Shown piece by piece: positions 14,861 to 29,227 of a DNA stretch of 32,082 nt (its first letter is position 1; each line of letters starts with the position of its first letter). The stretch is from Clostridia bacterium (GTDB lineage: Bacteria; Bacillota; Clostridia; Oscillospirales; CAG-272): contig JAGAJV010000159.1 in NCBI GenBank assembly GCA_017625915.1, positions 1 through 32,082 of the forward strand, in the 5' to 3' direction. The notes below the pieces were generated by a model. It made no database searches. It was not told the DNA's origin and saw nothing but the letters and a program-made list of their open reading frames with translations. The position numbers and the translations under genes were made by a program.

Positions 14861-14935
14861 GCTAGAGTAGCACAGTGGTAGTGCAGCTGATTCGTAATCA
14901 GCAGGTCGTGAGTTCAATCCTCATCTCTAGCTCCA
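14861..14935 (+). tRNA. tRNA-Thr, anticodon CGT
   Basis: A full cloverleaf can be drawn: acceptor GCTAGAG/CTCTAGC, D stem GCAC/GTGC, anticodon stem GCTGA/TCAGC with loop TTCGTAA (anticodon CGT, reading ACG), and T arm GTGAG-TTCAATC-CTCAT. The 3' CCA is encoded (14933-14935). Confidence 0.95.
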
Positions 14936-14940
14936 AGCCT

Positions 14941-14962
14941 AGCCTAACGGTTGGGCTTTTTT
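14941..14962 (+). terminator. tRNA-Thr terminator
   Basis: AGCCTAA pairs with TTGGGCT (one G-U pair), followed by a run of T to 14962. Confidence 0.82.
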
Positions 14963-14964
14963 AA

Positions 14965-15087
14965 TGCTCGCTTGCGAGCAATTCACGAAGCGAAGCTTTA
15001 ATTCATGATACACAGTATCAATTCATATTGCGTAGCAATAATTTATCAAATAAAATGAATTGCATAAATGCATAAATTGGCTTCGCC
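14965..15087. repeat. Hairpin array B (AATTCAT spacer, 20-bp period)
   Basis: AATTCAY/AATTTAT spacers occur exactly every 20 bp (14980, 15000, 15020, 15040). They separate unrelated palindromes: GCTCGC-tt-GCGAGC, GAAGC-gaa-GCTTT, GATAC-aca-GTATC and ATTGC-gta-GCAAT. After a central CAAATAAA the spacer becomes its reverse complement ATGAATT/ATAAATT, with GCAT-aa-ATGC and GGC-ttc-GCC following. The array ends 2 bp from the stop codon of the glycosyltransferase. Confidence 0.85.
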
Positions 15088-22418: not shown

Positions 22419-22781
22419 GAACTAATCCGGACGGTTGCGCCATAGAATGTCGAAAGGTACTATGGTGAGGAAAGTCCGTGCTTCGCAGGGCAGGATAACT
22501 GATAACGTCAGCCGAGGGTGACCTTAGGGAAAGTGCAACAGAAAATTACCGCCGAGAAATCGGTAAGGATGAAAACGCGAGGTAAGAGCTCACGACACGC
22601 TATGGTAACATAGGGTGGGTGTAAACCCTATCCGAAGCAACACCGCATAAGAGAATTTTTATTTGCCCGATAAAGCTATGCTATTCTCTTGGGTGGCACG
22701 CAATTTTGCGGAGCTATATGGTGACATATAGCAAAGATAGATGACCGTCTTTTAACAGAACACGGCTTACAGGATTAGTTC
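22419..22781 (+). ncRNA. rnpB: RNase P RNA
   Basis: The catalytic RNA that trims tRNA 5' leaders. The ends pair as P1: GAACTAATCC (22419-22428) with GGATTAGTTC (22772-22781). Conserved landmarks include GAGGAAAGTCCG near 22470 (universal CR-I region), GGGAAAGTGCAACAGAAA near 22530, and the 3' segment ending ACAGGATTAGTTC. The length of about 363 nt and the layout look like class A rather than the Bacillus-type class B; that subtype call is tentative. Confidence 0.93.
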
Positions 22782-22783
22782 AT

Positions 22784-22818
22784 AAAAAACCACTCGAACC
22801 CCGTTCGAGTGGTTTTTT
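22784..22818. terminator. Bidirectional terminator after rnpB
   Basis: ACCACTCGAAC (22789-22799) pairs perfectly with GTTCGAGTGGT (22803-22813). Six A before and six T after make it work on both strands, ending rnpB and catching minus transcripts from the glycerate kinase gene. Confidence 0.92.
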
Positions 22819-22821
22819 AAT

Positions 22822-22980
22822 TTATGCGAAGCATAATTTAATGACCGAAGGTTAATTCATGCAACCTGTTGCAATTAATTTTTCATTTATATGAATTGTT
22901 CTGCGAACATGAATTGAGGCACGCCTCATGAATTGATTTCATCATGAATTGGCTTCGCCATGATTTGCACTTCGTGCATT
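22822..22980. repeat. Hairpin array C (AATTCAT/ATGAATT spacer)
   Basis: Palindromes in order: ATGC-gaa-GCAT, GACC-gaa-GGTT, GCAAC-ct-GTTGC, a central switch (22880-22890), GTTC-tgc-GAAC, GAGGC-ac-GCCTC, GAT-ttc-ATC, GGC-ttc-GCC, GCAC-ttc-GTGC. They are separated by AATTCAT-type spacers before the switch and ATGAATT-type after it (22891, 22909, 22928, 22944). The last three hairpins are read through as the C-terminus of the glycerate kinase gene. Confidence 0.87.
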
Positions 22981-24198
22981 AATAAGCAAAATGCTTACAT
23001 CATTTACATTTGTGCCTGTTGGGCCTGTGAAAATAAGACCGTCTGACAGGGCTAGTGCGTTATAAGCATCGTTATTATTTAGATACTCTTCGGCACTTTT
23101 CTTGCTTTTTGCAATTTCCTTATATGTATTTCCGTCTGCATATCCACCGGCTGAATCGGTTGGTCCGTCTGTTCCGTCAGAGCCAACGGAGAAAACGCAC
23201 ACATTGTCAAGCTCTTTTATTTCAATTGATGCGCTAAGGGCTATTTCTTGGTTTCGTCCACCCTTGCCGTTGCCCTTTACATTTACAACAGTTTCCCCAC
23301 CTACAATAAAGGCGAGGGGTGTGTCTGTATTTTGGTTCATTATGGCAAGTCTGCCCAAGGCAAAGCCTACATTTTTCGCCTCGTCCTGCTCGTTATCTCT
23401 TAAAATTTCAGCCTTGTAGCCAAGCTTCTCGGCATACTTTTTTGCGCTTTTACAAAGCTCGGTAACACTGCCGGAAATATTGTGTATTGCGTTGTCAATT
23501 TTCTTAGGTGTTTCTCGCTTAATTAAATTAAGCATATTTTCATTTACTTCAATACTATATTTTTCTAAAATCGCAAGAGTATCGCTAACTGTGGTTAAAT
23601 CTGCACAGGCAGGGCCGGACGCTATCATATCTAGTCTATCGCCGATAACATCGCTGAGCACAACTGCGTAAACCGTGGCAGGAGCGCAGTGCTGTGCGAA
23701 TTTTCCACCCTTAACGTTAGAAATATGCTTTCTTACTGTGTTTATTTCCTCAATTGATGCGCCACATTTTAAGAGGGCGCTTGTTAGCTGCTGCATTTCA
23801 CTTAAGGAACAGGAAATATCCTCAAAAAGAGCTGAGCCACCGCCTGACACTAAAAATAGCACAAGGTCATCCTTTGTTAGCTTCTCTGTTAATTTTAGCG
23901 CCTTGCGTGTGGATAAAACAGTGTTTTCGTCAAGTACAGGGTGTGACGCCTCGCAAATTTCAATTTTCTGTAAAGCCCCCTCGCTGTGTCCGTATTTCGT
24001 TATTACGATGCCTTGGTCTATCCTGTTTCCCAGACACTCTACGGCAGTTTTTGCCATTTGATAGGATGCTTTACCGATAGCTACTAAAATCAGTCTGCCC
24101 TTGTGGTTTGGTAACTTTTCTATTGCTTTTTTAACTGCGCTGTCAGGCAAATTTTCTCTTATTGCGTTTTCGTATATGTATTTTGCGTGATTTCTCAT
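22942..24198 (-). CDS. Glycerate 2-kinase (MOFRL/DUF4147 family)
   Basis: A 418-aa cytoplasmic kinase that probably converts D-glycerate to 2-phosphoglycerate, linking hydroxypyruvate/glycerate or sugar-acid breakdown to glycolysis. Family marks are VAIGKASYQMAKTAVE near the N-terminus, LVSGGGSALFE, VLSDVIGD followed by SGP, and the MOFRL domain ending F-S-V-G-S-D-G-T-D-G-P-T-D-A/S-A-G. The length of about 420 aa is normal for the class II (GckA/TtuD) type. The final residues RSANHGEANS and the stop codon are encoded by hairpin array C, so the native end has been replaced or extended. GGAGAG lies before the ATG. Confidence 0.9.
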   Translation of the reverse strand: MRNHAKYIYENAIRENLPDSAVKKAIEKLPNHKGRLILVAIGKASYQMAKTAVECLGNRIDQGIVITKYGHSEGALQKIEICEASHPVLDENTVLSTRKALKLTEKLTKDDLVLFLVSGGGSALFEDISCSLSEMQQLTSALLKCGASIEEINTVRKHISNVKGGKFAQHCAPATVYAVVLSDVIGDRLDMIASGPACADLTTVSDTLAILEKYSIEVNENMLNLIKRETPKKIDNAIHNISGSVTELCKSAKKYAEKLGYKAEILRDNEQDEAKNVGFALGRLAIMNQNTDTPLAFIVGGETVVNVKGNGKGGRNQEIALSASIEIKELDNVCVFSVGSDGTDGPTDSAGGYADGNTYKEIAKSKKSAEEYLNNNDAYNALALSDGLIFTGPTGTNVNDVSILLINARSANHGEANS

Positions 24199-24217
24199 AA
24201 AACTCTCTCCGTTCGTT

Positions 24218-24259
24218 TTAGTGGTTAGTGGTTAACCTATCCCCTGTACCCTATCCATT
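24218..24259. repeat. Tandem heptamer tract H8 (two opposed types)
   Basis: TTAGTGG twice, then TTAACCT, ATCCCCT, GTACCCT, ATCCATT. A TTAGTGG-type block is fused to a CCTATCC-type block of opposite strand bias. The tract lies upstream of glycerate kinase and beside array E. Confidence 0.75.
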
Positions 24260-24265
24260 ACAAAA

Positions 24266-24443
24266 ACGAAATTCTCACTTCGTTCGAGCTAAATTACTTC
24301 GTAGCGAAATTACTTCACTTCGTTTCGTAGCGAAATGAAATTTGCTCTTTCGCTCGGCTTGCCGAATTTCGCTCAGTTTACTGTATTTCGCTCGGCTTGA
24401 CGAATTTCGCTTGCGCTTGCGCAAATTTCGCTGTGGCTTTGCC
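24266..24443. repeat. Hairpin array E (AGCGAAATT/AATTTCGCT spacer)
   Basis: AGCGAAATT-type spacers lie on the left and AATTTCGCT-type on the right, switching near 24330-24345. They separate different small palindromes, for example CGGC-tt-GCCG, CAG-ttta-CTG, TGCGC-tt-GCGCA and finally GTGGC-ttt-GCCAC. It fills most of the 267-bp gap between the AEC transporter and glycerate kinase. Confidence 0.8.
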
Positions 24444-24444
24444 A

Positions 24445-24472
24445 CTATCCCCTATCCTCTGTCCCCTATATC
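24445..24472. repeat. Tandem heptamer tract H9 at the AEC gene stop
   Basis: CTATCCC, CTATCCT, CTGTCCC, CTATATC. On the minus strand it reads GATATAG..., and the TAG is the AEC transporter's stop codon. Confidence 0.75.
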
Positions 24473-25392
24473 AAAAGCGTCATTACGGGAATGGTGATTG
24501 CTGAAAGTAAGGTGCCCAAAAGGACCAGACTTGATGCTTGCTCCTGTCCCTCTCCTATCATTTCCGAGAAGGATAAAACCACGCTTGCAACAGGGCAAGC
24601 CATAAGTATGTAAATTGATGCTTTCATTCTTTCGTCAAGTGGTAATAAAAGCAAAATTAAAAATGATACAAGCGGGAAAATTATTTGCTTAATTGCAACT
24701 ATCAGATATTGTGCTGGCACTAAAAACACCTTTTTAGGTGATACGCAAGCAAGACGCATTCCCATAATCAGCATACAAAGCGGGGTTGACATCTTGGCAA
24801 GAAGCACTATCATATTGTTGATAAGGTCGGGAATTTGAATTTTAAATACAAAGAACGGAATTGCTACGAATAATGCAATTACCGCAGGGTTTAAAAGTAT
24901 CTTTTTTACACTGATATATTTTTTATCCTGTGAAATAATATAAGATGCAACGCTCCAGCCAAGAATATTAAGCGCCATAGATGCCATAGCTGAAAATGCA
25001 ATCGCCTGCGGGTAGTCGGGAAATAGAGCCTCAAGCACAGGCACACCCATAAATGCGCAATTGGCAAGGGTGGTGGCAAGATTGTAAATCCTATATTTTA
25101 CATCGTTGCTTTTTCTTTTAAAAATAAAGCGAAAGGCTAAAAGTCCCAGCAAAAAGGCTAGAAAAATAAATACAAAGCCAATTAGCATTTCCTTTACAAG
25201 CGATACTGAAAACTCGTTTCTTGTAAGTGAATTAAACACAAGACATGGCGAGCAAACATACATAAGTAGCTTTGCAAAGGCTGAAATCTGGTCCTTTTTT
25301 ACTATTTTTGTTTTTATTAAAATGAAGCCCGGCATAGCATATAAAAGCATTGTGGATACTACACCAAGGGCGATAAGGAAGGTTGTTAGCAT
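24466..25392 (-). CDS. AEC family transporter (auxin efflux carrier-like permease)
   Basis: A 308-aa integral membrane protein with about ten helices in two inverted sets of five. Family features are the N-terminal MLLYAMPGFILIKTKIV, the C-S-P-C-L-V-F-N segment in helix 2 and the later L-C-M-L-I-M-G-M-R-L. Bacterial AEC proteins move small organic anions such as malate or lactate; the substrate here cannot be told. Its position upstream of glycerate kinase on the same strand raises the idea of organic-acid uptake, but a 267-bp repeat-filled gap separates them. GGAG lies eight bases before the ATG. The stop codon is formed by a heptamer repeat. Confidence 0.85.
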   Translation of the reverse strand: MLTTFLIALGVVSTMLLYAMPGFILIKTKIVKKDQISAFAKLLMYVCSPCLVFNSLTRNEFSVSLVKEMLIGFVFIFLAFLLGLLAFRFIFKRKSNDVKYRIYNLATTLANCAFMGVPVLEALFPDYPQAIAFSAMASMALNILGWSVASYIISQDKKYISVKKILLNPAVIALFVAIPFFVFKIQIPDLINNMIVLLAKMSTPLCMLIMGMRLACVSPKKVFLVPAQYLIVAIKQIIFPLVSFLILLLLPLDERMKASIYILMACPVASVVLSFSEMIGEGQEQASSLVLLGTLLSAITIPVMTLLI

Positions 25393-25410
25393 GTGAAAAT
25401 CTCCGATTTT

Positions 25411-25445
25411 TAGTGGATAATGGTTAGTGGCTAGTGACTAGCGGT
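25411..25445. repeat. Tandem heptamer tract H10 (TAGTGGT type)
   Basis: TAGTGGA, TAATGGT, TAGTGGC, TAGTGAC, TAGCGGT. It forms most of the 5' leader of the AEC transporter gene on the minus strand. Confidence 0.75.
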
Positions 25446-25461
25446 TTGTTTTTGCAAAAAT

Positions 25462-25490
25462 ATATTAGCATATTATATGAAATTTTTCAA
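25462..25490 (-). promoter_or_regulatory. Probable AEC transporter promoter
   Basis: On the minus strand TTGAAA (25485-25490) and TAATAT (25462-25467) are spaced by 17 bp, upstream of tract H10. Confidence 0.6.
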
Positions 25491-25520
25491 CAAAAAAGCA
25501 AAATTTTTCTATGCCAAATA

Positions 25521-25549
25521 TTGCAATAGGAAAATCATTGTGCTAAAAT
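25521..25549 (+). promoter_or_regulatory. Probable ddh promoter
   Basis: TTGCAA (25521-25526) and TAAAAT (25544-25549) are spaced by 17 bp. If used, hairpin array D is transcribed as the whole 5' untranslated region of ddh. The 381-bp gap from 25393 to 25773 is thus tract H10, two divergent promoters and array D; no gene is seen in it. Confidence 0.6.
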
Positions 25550-25582
25550 AAAATCAAAATTAAAAGCTATGCCAAAGTGTAT

Positions 25583-25760
25583 TAATGACCGACGGTCAAT
25601 TCATGCGTAGCAATTTATGCAACCTGTTGCAATTCATGTTCGTAGAACAATTCATTTTTCATTTTTATGAATAGGTGCAAGCACCATGAATAGAGGCAAG
25701 CCTCATGAATTGATTTTATCATAAATTGGCTTCGCCATGAAATGCACCTTGTGCATTATA
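25583..25760. repeat. Hairpin array D (AATTCAT/ATGAATT spacer), in the ddh leader
   Basis: Palindromes in order: GACC-gac-GGTC, GC-gta-GC, GCAAC-ct-GTTGC, GTTC-gta-GAAC, a central switch (25656-25666), GGTGC-aa-GCACC, GAGGC-aa-GCCTC, GAT-ttt-ATC, GGC-ttc-GCC, GCAC-ctt-GTGC. AATTCAT spacers (25598, 25631, 25649) come before the switch and ATGAATW or similar (25667, 25686, 25705, 25721) after it. Most stems match array C while several loops differ. Confidence 0.87.
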
Positions 25761-26883: not shown

Positions 26884-26945
26884 TAAGAGAGGTGGGGGTG
26901 AATAGAAGCACGGCTGCTTGTGGTGACACGTATTACACAGTGTAA
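26884..26945 (+). other. Unexplained pflB leader segment
   Basis: The transcribed leader begins with a purine-rich GAGGTGGGGGTGAATAG block, followed by an AAGCA-cggc-TGCTT hairpin (26906-26919) and a GTGACAC...GTGTAAC stretch. It does not match the ZTP (pfl-motif) riboswitch, whose conserved 3' CCGCC-type block is missing. Its role is unknown. Confidence 0.35.
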
Positions 26946-26980
26946 CTACTAACCACTAATCACCAACCACTAACCACTAT
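26946..26980. repeat. Tandem heptamer tract H11 (CCACTAA type)
   Basis: CTACTAA, CCACTAA, TCACCAA, CCACTAA, CCACTAT, ending 18 bp before the pflB start codon and thus within the mRNA leader. Confidence 0.82.
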
Positions 26981-26998: not shown

Positions 26999-29227
26999 AT
27001 GATTAAAGAATGGGAAAACTTTGTCGGCGGACCTTGGGAAACCGAGATAAATGTTCGTGACTTTATCCACAGAAATGTTACACCTTACTACGGTAACGGC
27101 GATTTCTTATCAGGTCCGACTAAGAATACACTTGATTTATGGGATGAAATAAGCAAGCTTAAGAAGGAGGAAATTGAAAAGGGCGGTGTTCTCGATATGG
27201 ACACTAAGATTATTTCTACAATTACCTCACATCCTGCCGCTTACATTGATAAGGACAAGGAGCAAATTGTGGGCTTGCAGACAGACAAGCCCTTAAAGCG
27301 CTCACTTCAGCCATACGGCGGCATCAGAATGGCTATGAAGGCTTGTAAGGACAACGGCTACGAGGTTGACCCCGAGGTTGTTGAATACTTTACCGAGCAT
27401 AGAAAAACACATAACGCAGGCGTTTTCGATGTTTATACTACTGAAATGAGAAAATGCCGTTCCAGCCATATTATTACAGGCTTACCGGATGCTTACGGCA
27501 GAGGACGCATTATTGGCGACTACCGCAGGGTTGCCCTTTACGGTGTTGATAAGCTAATTGAGTTTAAGCAAAAGCAAAAGGCAGGCACACGCATTATTAT
27601 GTATGCCGATGTTATAAGAGAAAGAGAGGAGCTTTCCGAGCAAATTCGCGCTCTTGAAATGCTTAAGAAAATGGCTCTTTCCTATGGCTGTGATATTTCT
27701 AAGCCTGCATCTAACTTTAAGGAAGCAGTTCAAGCTGTATATTTTGCTTACCTTGCAGCAGTTAAGGAGCAAAACGGAGCTGCTATGAGTCTTGGCAGAA
27801 CATCAACCTTCCTTGATATTTATGCAGAAAGAGATTTACAGGCAGGCTTAATTACTGAAAAGGAAATTCAAGAAATTATCGACCATTTCATTATGAAGCT
27901 TCGTCTTGTATGCTTTGCAAGAACTCCAGACTATAACGCTATTTTTGCAGGCGACCCTACTTGGGTAACCGAATCTATTGGCGGTATGGCTATTGACGGC
28001 CGTCCGCTTGTTACTAAATCTTCATTTAGATATTTAAATACCTTAAATAATATAGGCGCAGCTCCGGAGCCAAACCTAACTGTATTATGGTCAAATAATC
28101 TACCGGAGGAATTTAAGAAATTCTGCGCAGAGATTTCTATTAAGCACCATGCGGTACAGTATGAAAATGACGATATTATGCGTCCGCTTCACGGTGACGA
28201 CTACGGTATTGCTTGCTGTGTTTCCTCAATGAGAATTGGTAAGGAAATGCAATTCTTTGGCGCAAGAGCTAACCTTGCTAAATGTCTTCTCTATGCTATC
28301 AACGGTGGTGTTGACGAGATTACAGGCGAGCAGGTAGGTCCTGAGTATCGCGGTGTTGAGGGTGAATATCTTGACTATGACGATGTTATGGAAAAATATA
28401 AGGATATGATGAGATGGCTTGCGCAGGTATATGTAAACGCCCTCAATATTATCCACTATATGCACGATAAGTACAGCTATGAAAGACTTCAAATGGCGCT
28501 TCACGACAAGAATGTTAAAAGATGGTTTGCTACAGGTATTGCAGGCTTCTCCGTTGTTGCCGACTCACTTTCCGCTATTAAATATGCTAAGGTTAGAGTT
28601 GTAAGAAACGAGAAGGGTATTGTTACAGACTACATTACCGAGGGCGATTTCCCTAAGTACGGTAACGACGACGACAGAGTTGATAATATCGCAAAAGAGG
28701 TTCTGCACACCTTTGTTGAGTATCTTCGTCAAAATTATACCTACCGTGAGGGTATTATAACAACATCTATTCTTACAATTACATCAAACGTATCCTACGG
28801 TAAGAATACAGGCTCAACGCCTGACGGAAGAAAGCAGGGCGAGCCCTTTGCTCCGGGTGCTAATCCAATGCACGGACGCGACACAAACGGCGCTGTTGCA
28901 TCTATGGCATCTGTTGCTAAGTTACCGTTTATGGATTCACAGGACGGTATTTCAAACACATTTACAATTGTTCCAAGCGCCCTGGGTAAGAGCCACAAGG
29001 AAAGAGTTACTAACCTTGTTGCATTACTTGACGGCTATTCCAAGAAGGGTGGCTTCCATCTTAATGTTAATGTATTTGACAAGGAATTGCTTCTCGATGC
29101 GCAAAAGCATCCGGAAAAGTATCCACAGCTTACAATTCGTGTATCCGGCTACGCAGTTAACTTTATTAAGCTAACCAAGGAGCAACAGGACGAGGTTATT
29201 TCAAGAACCTTCCACTGCTGTATCTGA
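26999..29227 (+). CDS. pflB: Formate C-acetyltransferase (pyruvate formate-lyase)
   Basis: A cytoplasmic glycyl-radical enzyme that converts pyruvate and CoA to acetyl-CoA and formate in anaerobic fermentation. The 742-aa protein matches the true PFL type in length and motifs: N-V-R-D-F-I near the start, [13 protein letters not shown], the [10 protein letters not shown] block and [20 protein letters not shown]. The active-site cysteine pair is Cys406-Cys407 in A-C-C-V-S-S-M-R, and the C-terminal radical site is Gly717 in R-V-S-G-Y-A. GAGAGGA precedes the ATG. It is followed after one base by pflA, so the enzyme and its activase are made together. Confidence 0.96.

Follow-up and report, generated by a model that had tools for sequence, protein, structure and literature searches.

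Several described systems bear comparison with the arrays of small hairpins that we analyse here in a stretch of Clostridia bacterium DNA (GenBank assembly GCA_017625915.1, contig JAGAJV010000159.1; all 32,082 nucleotides are referred to as the window). One is Gut-1 (Rfam RF01706), whose consensus has three hairpins separated by GUGAAAU; PMC2864571 lists it as certainly an RNA and as found only in human gut metagenomes. Another is the intervening sequence (IVS) of 23S rRNA genes, in which complementary arms surround a gene for a four-helix-bundle protein of family PF05635 (23S_rRNA_IVP, also S23p; here IVP). In PMC4990558, this family was still called of no known function in 2016, Ralph and McClelland (1993) are credited with proposing that the protein of IVSs serves as a mobility factor, and one published IVS bears tandem heptamers before its S23p open reading frame (ORF). 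PF05635 also resembles Avd of diversity-generating retroelements, according to PMC10053308.

Arrays B (14961-15087), C (22838-22983) and D (25582-25760) of the window share with Gut-1 the alternation of variable-stem hairpins and a constant heptamer. The word is a different one, however, and Gut-1 has been described as a stand-alone RNA rather than as one of the two arms of an element that bears a protein gene. All three arrays lie where a first-pass annotation had placed them and follow a common plan: two halves built of short palindromes and a spacer word with one-base variants, and between them a short centre at which the word flips from AATTCAT to its reverse complement ATGAATT. The constant spacer, variable palindromes, mirrored halves and flip that this annotation described were all borne out, and the phenomenon proved larger in extent than it had recognised. 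Its interpretation appears right only in part, and it did not foresee the many spacer classes of IVP elements reported below. Unlike 23S rRNA IVSs, arrays B to D are intergenic, contain no ORF of PF05635 and have palindromes between their heptamers; no 16S or 23S rRNA match was found in the window, so these arrays are not rRNA insertions. We conclude, with a probability of about 0.7, that B, C and D are gene-less copies, consisting of the two mirrored arms, of a small mobile element; full copies carry an IVP gene, and IVP would recognise and move the element. We found no published description of hairpin-heptamer arms with IVP genes, a weak negative because most subscription papers and preprints lay outside the search.

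AATTCAT units are numerous and patchily distributed

The host genome (2.08 Mb, 93% complete) contains 107 units that fit AATTCAT-N9-14-AATTCAT exactly, and the same pattern read backwards is absent, so the units do not arise by chance. A search of 57 genomes, the host included, found units in very uneven number: 54 in G011, 49 in G031 (another genus), 32 in G021, 21 each in G015 and G043 (the latter of another family), 20 each in G005 and G019, about 17 in G027 (11 + 6), and 0 to 8 in the others. Genomes G000, G011 and G015 are each over 90% complete; estimates for individual genomes are 97% for G015 and G043, 81% for G027, 79% for G005, 69% for G021 and 61% for G019. Closely similar arms occur at several dispersed places in G021. 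A search of named genomes gave at least 36 of 119 stretches with two or more palindromic units among the matches listed, many of the remaining stretches resembling chance or other repeats, and array D had no match in phage and plasmid collections. One 5128-base contig filed as viral (L191) holds four AATTCAT array matches and may be host DNA.

Occurrence is patchy at single sites as well. The region 3' of rnpB, where array C lies, has an array in the host genome only and none in the 17 other relatives that could be read. We fetched 30 rnpB loci, of which 18, the host's among them, were readable at the 3' end and 12 were not by the pattern used; up to 330 bases were read, two loci were cut short, and one carried a single ATGAATT. 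Gene order past rnpB is not conserved, so these relatives are not clean empty sites.

Hairpins are conserved as shapes and spacers as sequence

Among 247 distinct units with exact spacers from nine genomes, 194 form a stem of 3 bp or more without a mismatch, against about 6 expected from shuffling within units, and there are 90 different 5' arms. G000 alone gave 43 perfectly paired units out of 82 (1.4 expected), and a mixed set of named genomes and viral contigs, chance matches included, gave 128 out of 385 (8.4 expected). Of the 53 failing units, 16 pass when G-T pairs are allowed and 20 pass with one mismatch; the classes, including the type described next, overlap. Nine distinct units of the form NGAGC-NNN-GCGAN, found across genera (G000, G031, G043 and others), have outer bases that are not Watson-Crick paired and may be held together by tandem G-A mismatches.

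Comparisons within genomes agreed with the earlier proposal that stems are retained while loops drift. Between units of the same genome, one-base differences fell 37 times in loops (167 sites) and 22 times in stems (518 sites), and double differences within stems were compensatory in 23 cases and not in 4, the compared pairs being non-independent in both counts. Stems mutating as freely as loops, the pattern that would have argued against the proposal, were looked for and not found. The 15 parsed elements of G031 show the same behaviour slot by slot. All have one architecture, in which a core with two A+T-rich hairpins is flanked on each side by four others; of the 118 hairpins in the eight flanking slots, 107 pair perfectly, although any one slot has 8 to 14 different stems among its 14 or 15 copies, and 109 of 118 spacers are identical. 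Pairing without a fixed stem sequence, next to near-identical spacers, indicates that the hairpins are kept as a shape and the spacers as a sequence. In four genomes an arm most often has four hairpins, as do 28 of 33 arms in G031 and 19 of 53 in G000. The same stem recurs within an arm less often than in permutations, with 1 case against 6.6 expected in G000 (P 0.002) and weaker depletion in G031, G043 and G011 (P 0.04, 0.05 and 0.10).

The loops follow a strand-specific rule. On the strand that reads AATTCAT, 34 of 114 three-base loops are GNA and 4 are TNC, 19 of 33 four-base loops are GNNA and none is TNNC, and the closing pair is C-G in 151 of the 194 perfect stems. On the TCA strand of other spacer classes, 36 of 67 loops are GNA or GNNA and none is of the reversed type, 10 of the 46 loci, with neither TCA nor TGA in their word, being excluded from this count. 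Only 6 of the 19 GNNA loops are GNRA, so the tetraloop preference of RNA is not seen. C(GNA)G and C(GNNA)G are unusually stable DNA hairpins, and the loop preference thus points to single-stranded DNA.

Arrays lie beside IVP genes and their word follows the IVP tree

The core ORF of one G031 element (L301) matched PF05635 with E 4.5e-25 and is absent from the 14 parsed sister copies in that genome. Searching for the family gave 133 hits in 44 of the 57 genomes and no hit in 14 control genomes. In G000:C46 (L016) the order is AATTCAT arm, IVP gene, ATGAATT arm, with a ribosome-binding-like AAGAGG before the ATG, and the encoded protein matches PDB 2rld at 2e-29. The gene lies between inside-out arms in G011:C25, directly follows an arm in G021:C19 and is close to an array in G027:C11; L016, L301, L311 and L042 are full copies with a PF05635 gene in or beside the arms. 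In G000:C53 and G015:C1 an AATTCAT array lies a few hundred bases from an IVP gene of another class. Flanks of other IVP genes show the same design with other words, among them GTGATAT, GCTTCAT and GTGATGT. No other gene was found tied to the arms, other genes having been sought only where a hypothesis existed.

We measured this linkage with a blind detector that requires two or more different hairpins between identical 7-mers within 460 bases upstream or 400 downstream. It was positive at 46 of 93 IVP loci and in none of 465 dinucleotide shuffles. Controls gave 2 of 64 displaced windows, which lie within the same loci and are not a random genome sample, and 1 of 23 rnpB loci, which is array C itself (7 of the 30 rnpB loci were too short). 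The IVP set was built from 97 of the 133 hits, taken largely in order of score and without fragments at contig edges; three with an internal stop and no match and one duplicate were removed, and L348, with one stop, was kept by using its longest open piece.

The spacer word follows the IVP phylogeny. On a tree of the 93 proteins (119 columns, many weak forks), the 59 loci that could be labelled fall into 15 word classes, grouped by hand, and require 20 changes; shuffled labels required 44.5 on average, and 0 of 200 shuffles were as low. The strict set of 46 loci requires 16 changes, a figure without a shuffle of its own. Ten of 11 AATTCAT loci belong to one IVP clade (SH-aLRT 97), which covers ten genomes, and an IVP of this clade is present in six of nine genomes with at least 17 units against four of 48 others (p 4e-4, the threshold having been chosen afterwards).

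Two side observations concern arms and genes elsewhere. In G021 (L039-L044) a second type of array, with the word TCGATAT, adjoins AATTCAT arms in several places, and CGATAT words also flank IVP genes that belong to a clade of their own. In G043 (L285:1105-1700), two AATTCAT arms with the same mirrored hairpins surround a short unrelated ORF, which by eye we take to be DUF3343-like, as if the arms carried a cargo gene.

Gut-1 is best re-read as a spacer class of IVP arms

The first-pass annotation did not recognise the arrays as a named repeat class. By score this holds for the window: the Gut-1 covariance model (50 bits) had no match there, and array D had none up to E 5. With its three hairpins separated by GUGAAAU, however, Gut-1 is a sister class, already in Rfam as an orphan, so the design was not wholly undescribed. 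Its threshold is reached in other spacer classes. Gut-1 matched 6 of 43 scanned IVP loci of the host's order (7 matches), each time 5' of the IVP gene, and at E 0.001 it was found in 41 of 44 genomes with an IVP gene against 3 of 13 without one. The cut-off is passed in 38 of the 57 genomes, and in the 14 control genomes there was a single sub-cut-off match, in E. coli. Among the matches listed, most lie away from IVP hits, as gene-less copies would. The best reading of Gut-1 is as one of the spacer classes of IVP arms, which gives an orphan structured-RNA family a home and links it to the 23S rRNA intervening-sequence protein family.

Other IVP elements have plain heptamer arms

Of 106 IVP loci, 26 have at least 17 of 21 matches at lag 7, a level that no locus reaches at lags 4, 5, 6, 8, 9 or 10; a repeated heptamer upstream with its reverse complement downstream occurs at 40 of the 106, against 2 after mononucleotide shuffling. 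Nineteen of the 26 plain-heptamer loci come from the host's order. They all fall in one 22-row group of the IVP tree whose fork is weak (72), and 17 of them belong to the 47 at which the hairpin test was negative. Across the host's phylum, PF05635 was found in 25 of 119 genomes drawn, and several of 14 readable loci (28 fetched) have plain inverted heptamers. At one of the loci from another part of the phylum (L454), the IVP gene and its heptamers lie inside a 23S rRNA gene (RF02541, 2585 bits), as in the described IVSs. In arms with hairpins, successive maximal hairpins are 7 nucleotides apart in 37 of 66 cases, and the AATTCAT class, in which a T-A pair can join either helix, accounts for 10 of the 11 gaps of 5. 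Together with the tandem heptamers of the published IVS, these plain arms and 7-nucleotide gaps lead us to read the spacer as the heptamer of IVP elements, with palindromes interposed.

A mobile element with folding arms is the probable explanation

Each arm consists of near-constant heptamers with private palindromes between them. We propose that folding of the palindromes would make the heptamers contiguous and recreate the plain tandem-heptamer arm of other IVP elements; the palindromes would be passive inserts, required to fold but under no other constraint on their drift. IVP would read the heptamer on the folded single strand and move the element. With four hairpins as the modal number, an arm would hold about five words, and our guess is that there may be one word per subunit of a pentameric ring. 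Gene-less copies could spread in trans or by host recombination. More tentatively, IVP elements might form a selfish class, Gut-1 and IVSs included, in which a ring protein reads a chain of heptamers that exists only after the strand has folded; each lineage would have its own word and protein, and gene-less copies would spread by the dozen. The dozens of copies that keep shape and not sequence are a natural test of folding, and the old idea of IVS-protein mobility becomes directly testable with natural protein-word pairs to swap.

Several observations weigh against mobilisation by IVP. Neither transposition nor binding has been observed, no target-site duplication was seen by eye around the G031 copies, and one-armed copies exist. 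The strict array test fails at 47 of 93 IVP loci, 30 of which also lack plain heptamers by the lag-7 test, some of them being arrays by eye, and hairpin arrays were found at 0 of the 14 readable phylum-wide loci. Common ancestry of an arm and its linked gene would likewise make word and tree agree, so the agreement is not proof of recognition. No IVP of the AATTCAT clade was found in the array-rich genomes G015 (all three IVP hits classified), G043 (three of four) and G005 (four of six); as far as the hits were classified, copies thus persist or spread without one. Conversely, G010, G032 and G054 have an IVP of this clade and a single exact unit each. Lastly, variant spacers in G031 were compensated at the nested partner in the opposite arm in 0 of 9 cases; pairing between arms is not supported, and we rejected an arm-to-arm duplex as the selected structure.

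We weighed three other explanations. The arrays might be host non-coding RNAs or modules for mRNA stability or termination, with the IVP gene a chance neighbour. The filing of Gut-1 as an RNA in PMC2864571 fits this, as does the position of the arrays at gene ends and in intergenic space, and all three fold better than shuffles (z -2.6 as RNA and -4.7 as DNA for D; -2.4 and -4.1 as DNA for C and B). We nevertheless consider it unlikely: arrays flank IVP genes far above controls, the word follows the IVP tree, array C is missing after rnpB in the readable relatives, arrays occur patchily across genomes, and few GNNA loops are GNRA. The strand that shows the loop preference, moreover, switches between the two halves, so a transcript of either strand would carry it along one half only. 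Alternatively, pairing might be kept by mutation rather than selection, through template switching that copies one arm of a quasi-palindrome onto the other, with IVP uninvolved. Such quasi-palindrome correction is known from E. coli and would account for stems that differ between copies yet still pair and for the dominance of compensatory doubles. It leaves unexplained why the word is constant, why the loop rule is strand-specific both in AATTCAT units and in other classes, and why repeated stems are depleted within arms in G000. As a sole cause we hold it to be quite improbable; template switching is compatible with a mobile IVP element, and both can act together.

That the arrays are ordinary miniature inverted-repeat transposable elements, or repeats of the repetitive extragenic palindromic (REP)/REPIN type, moved by a DDE or Y1 (RAYT) transposase, seems very improbable to us. 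They are dispersed, inverted, multi-copy and intergenic, with the similar dispersed copies of G021 as an example, and like REP/REPIN and RAYT they combine short dispersed palindromes with a suspected helper protein. REP copies share their hairpin sequence, however, whereas here the linker is constant, the palindrome is variable and hairpins of different copies share no sequence; nor was a target duplication seen by eye, though the arms are mirrored. Y1_Tnp hits occur in the array-rich genomes G000, G005, G011, G031 (weak) and G043 and are missing from array-rich G015, G019, G021 and G027, DDE families not having been searched; G019, G021 and G027 are incomplete, so only G015 is a firm absence. 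We likewise rejected a reverse transcriptase as required partner. RVT_1 hits are present in G031 and G043, but seven array-rich genomes (G000, G005, G011, G015, G019, G021 and G027) have none, unlike Avd and its diversity-generating retroelements. As G015 is 97% complete and has neither hit, neither Y1_Tnp nor RVT_1 seems to be required. The annotation had also called the arrays the reverse of CRISPR logic. In contrast to a CRISPR array, the constant part here is 7 nucleotides long and the variable part palindromic; the phrase serves as an image only, for there is no sign of stored foreign sequence (cas genes were not searched).

Arrays and neighbouring features in the window

Array B follows tRNA-Thr (14861-14935). 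Its left half begins with TTAAT and continues with the hairpins gctcgcTTgcgagc, gaagcGAAgcttt, gatacACAgtatc and attgcGTAgcaat and the words AATTCAC, AATTCAT, AATTCAT and AATTTAT; right of the centre it reads ATGAATT gcataaatgc ATAAATT ggcTTCgcc. The 20-bp phasing reported for B stands, the left words starting at 14980, 15000, 15020 and 15040, because three consecutive hairpins are all 13 nucleotides long. As a general rule it was rejected: hairpin length varies elsewhere, and the steps in C and D are 14 to 19.

Array C follows rnpB (22419-22785) and its terminator. TTAAT and two hairpins with AATTCAT and AATTAAT make up the left half, the centre contains TTTTCAT, and the right half has five hairpins with ATGAATT and ATGATTT words and ends in CATTAA. 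A small extra unit, AATTTAT-gcGAAgc-ATAATTT (22819-22839), stands immediately before it. Two genes separate C from D, so the range 22822-25760 runs from C through D and leaves B outside. Array D, with a Mem_trans gene on one side and a diaminopimelate dehydrogenase gene on the other, has TTAAT and four hairpins with AATTCAT and AATTTAT on its left, the centre TTTTCATTTTT, and on its right five hairpins with ATGAATA, ATGAATT, ATAAATT and ATGAAAT, ending in CATTATA. At the position that corresponds to its central ttttcattttt (25656-25666), the full-length copy G000:C46 has the IVP gene. The stems listed earlier as shared by C and D are correct, but the first hairpin of C is gaccGAAggtt, with an outer G-T pair, and gttc...gaac stands in the right half of C and the left half of D.

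A glycerate-kinase-like ORF (DUF4147/MOFRL; 22942-24198, minus strand) terminates within array C (22942-22983), so roughly its last 13 codons derive from the array. Between two genes, at 24283-24432, small palindromes and AATTTCGCT-like words form a further, irregular array. Just upstream of the gene at 26999-29227, the heptamer TAACCAC forms a plain tandem repeat of 5.3 copies (26943-26979), the same kind of word as in the plain arms of IVP elements; GTGGTTA-type words near 24220-24240 and 25416-25445 resemble it.

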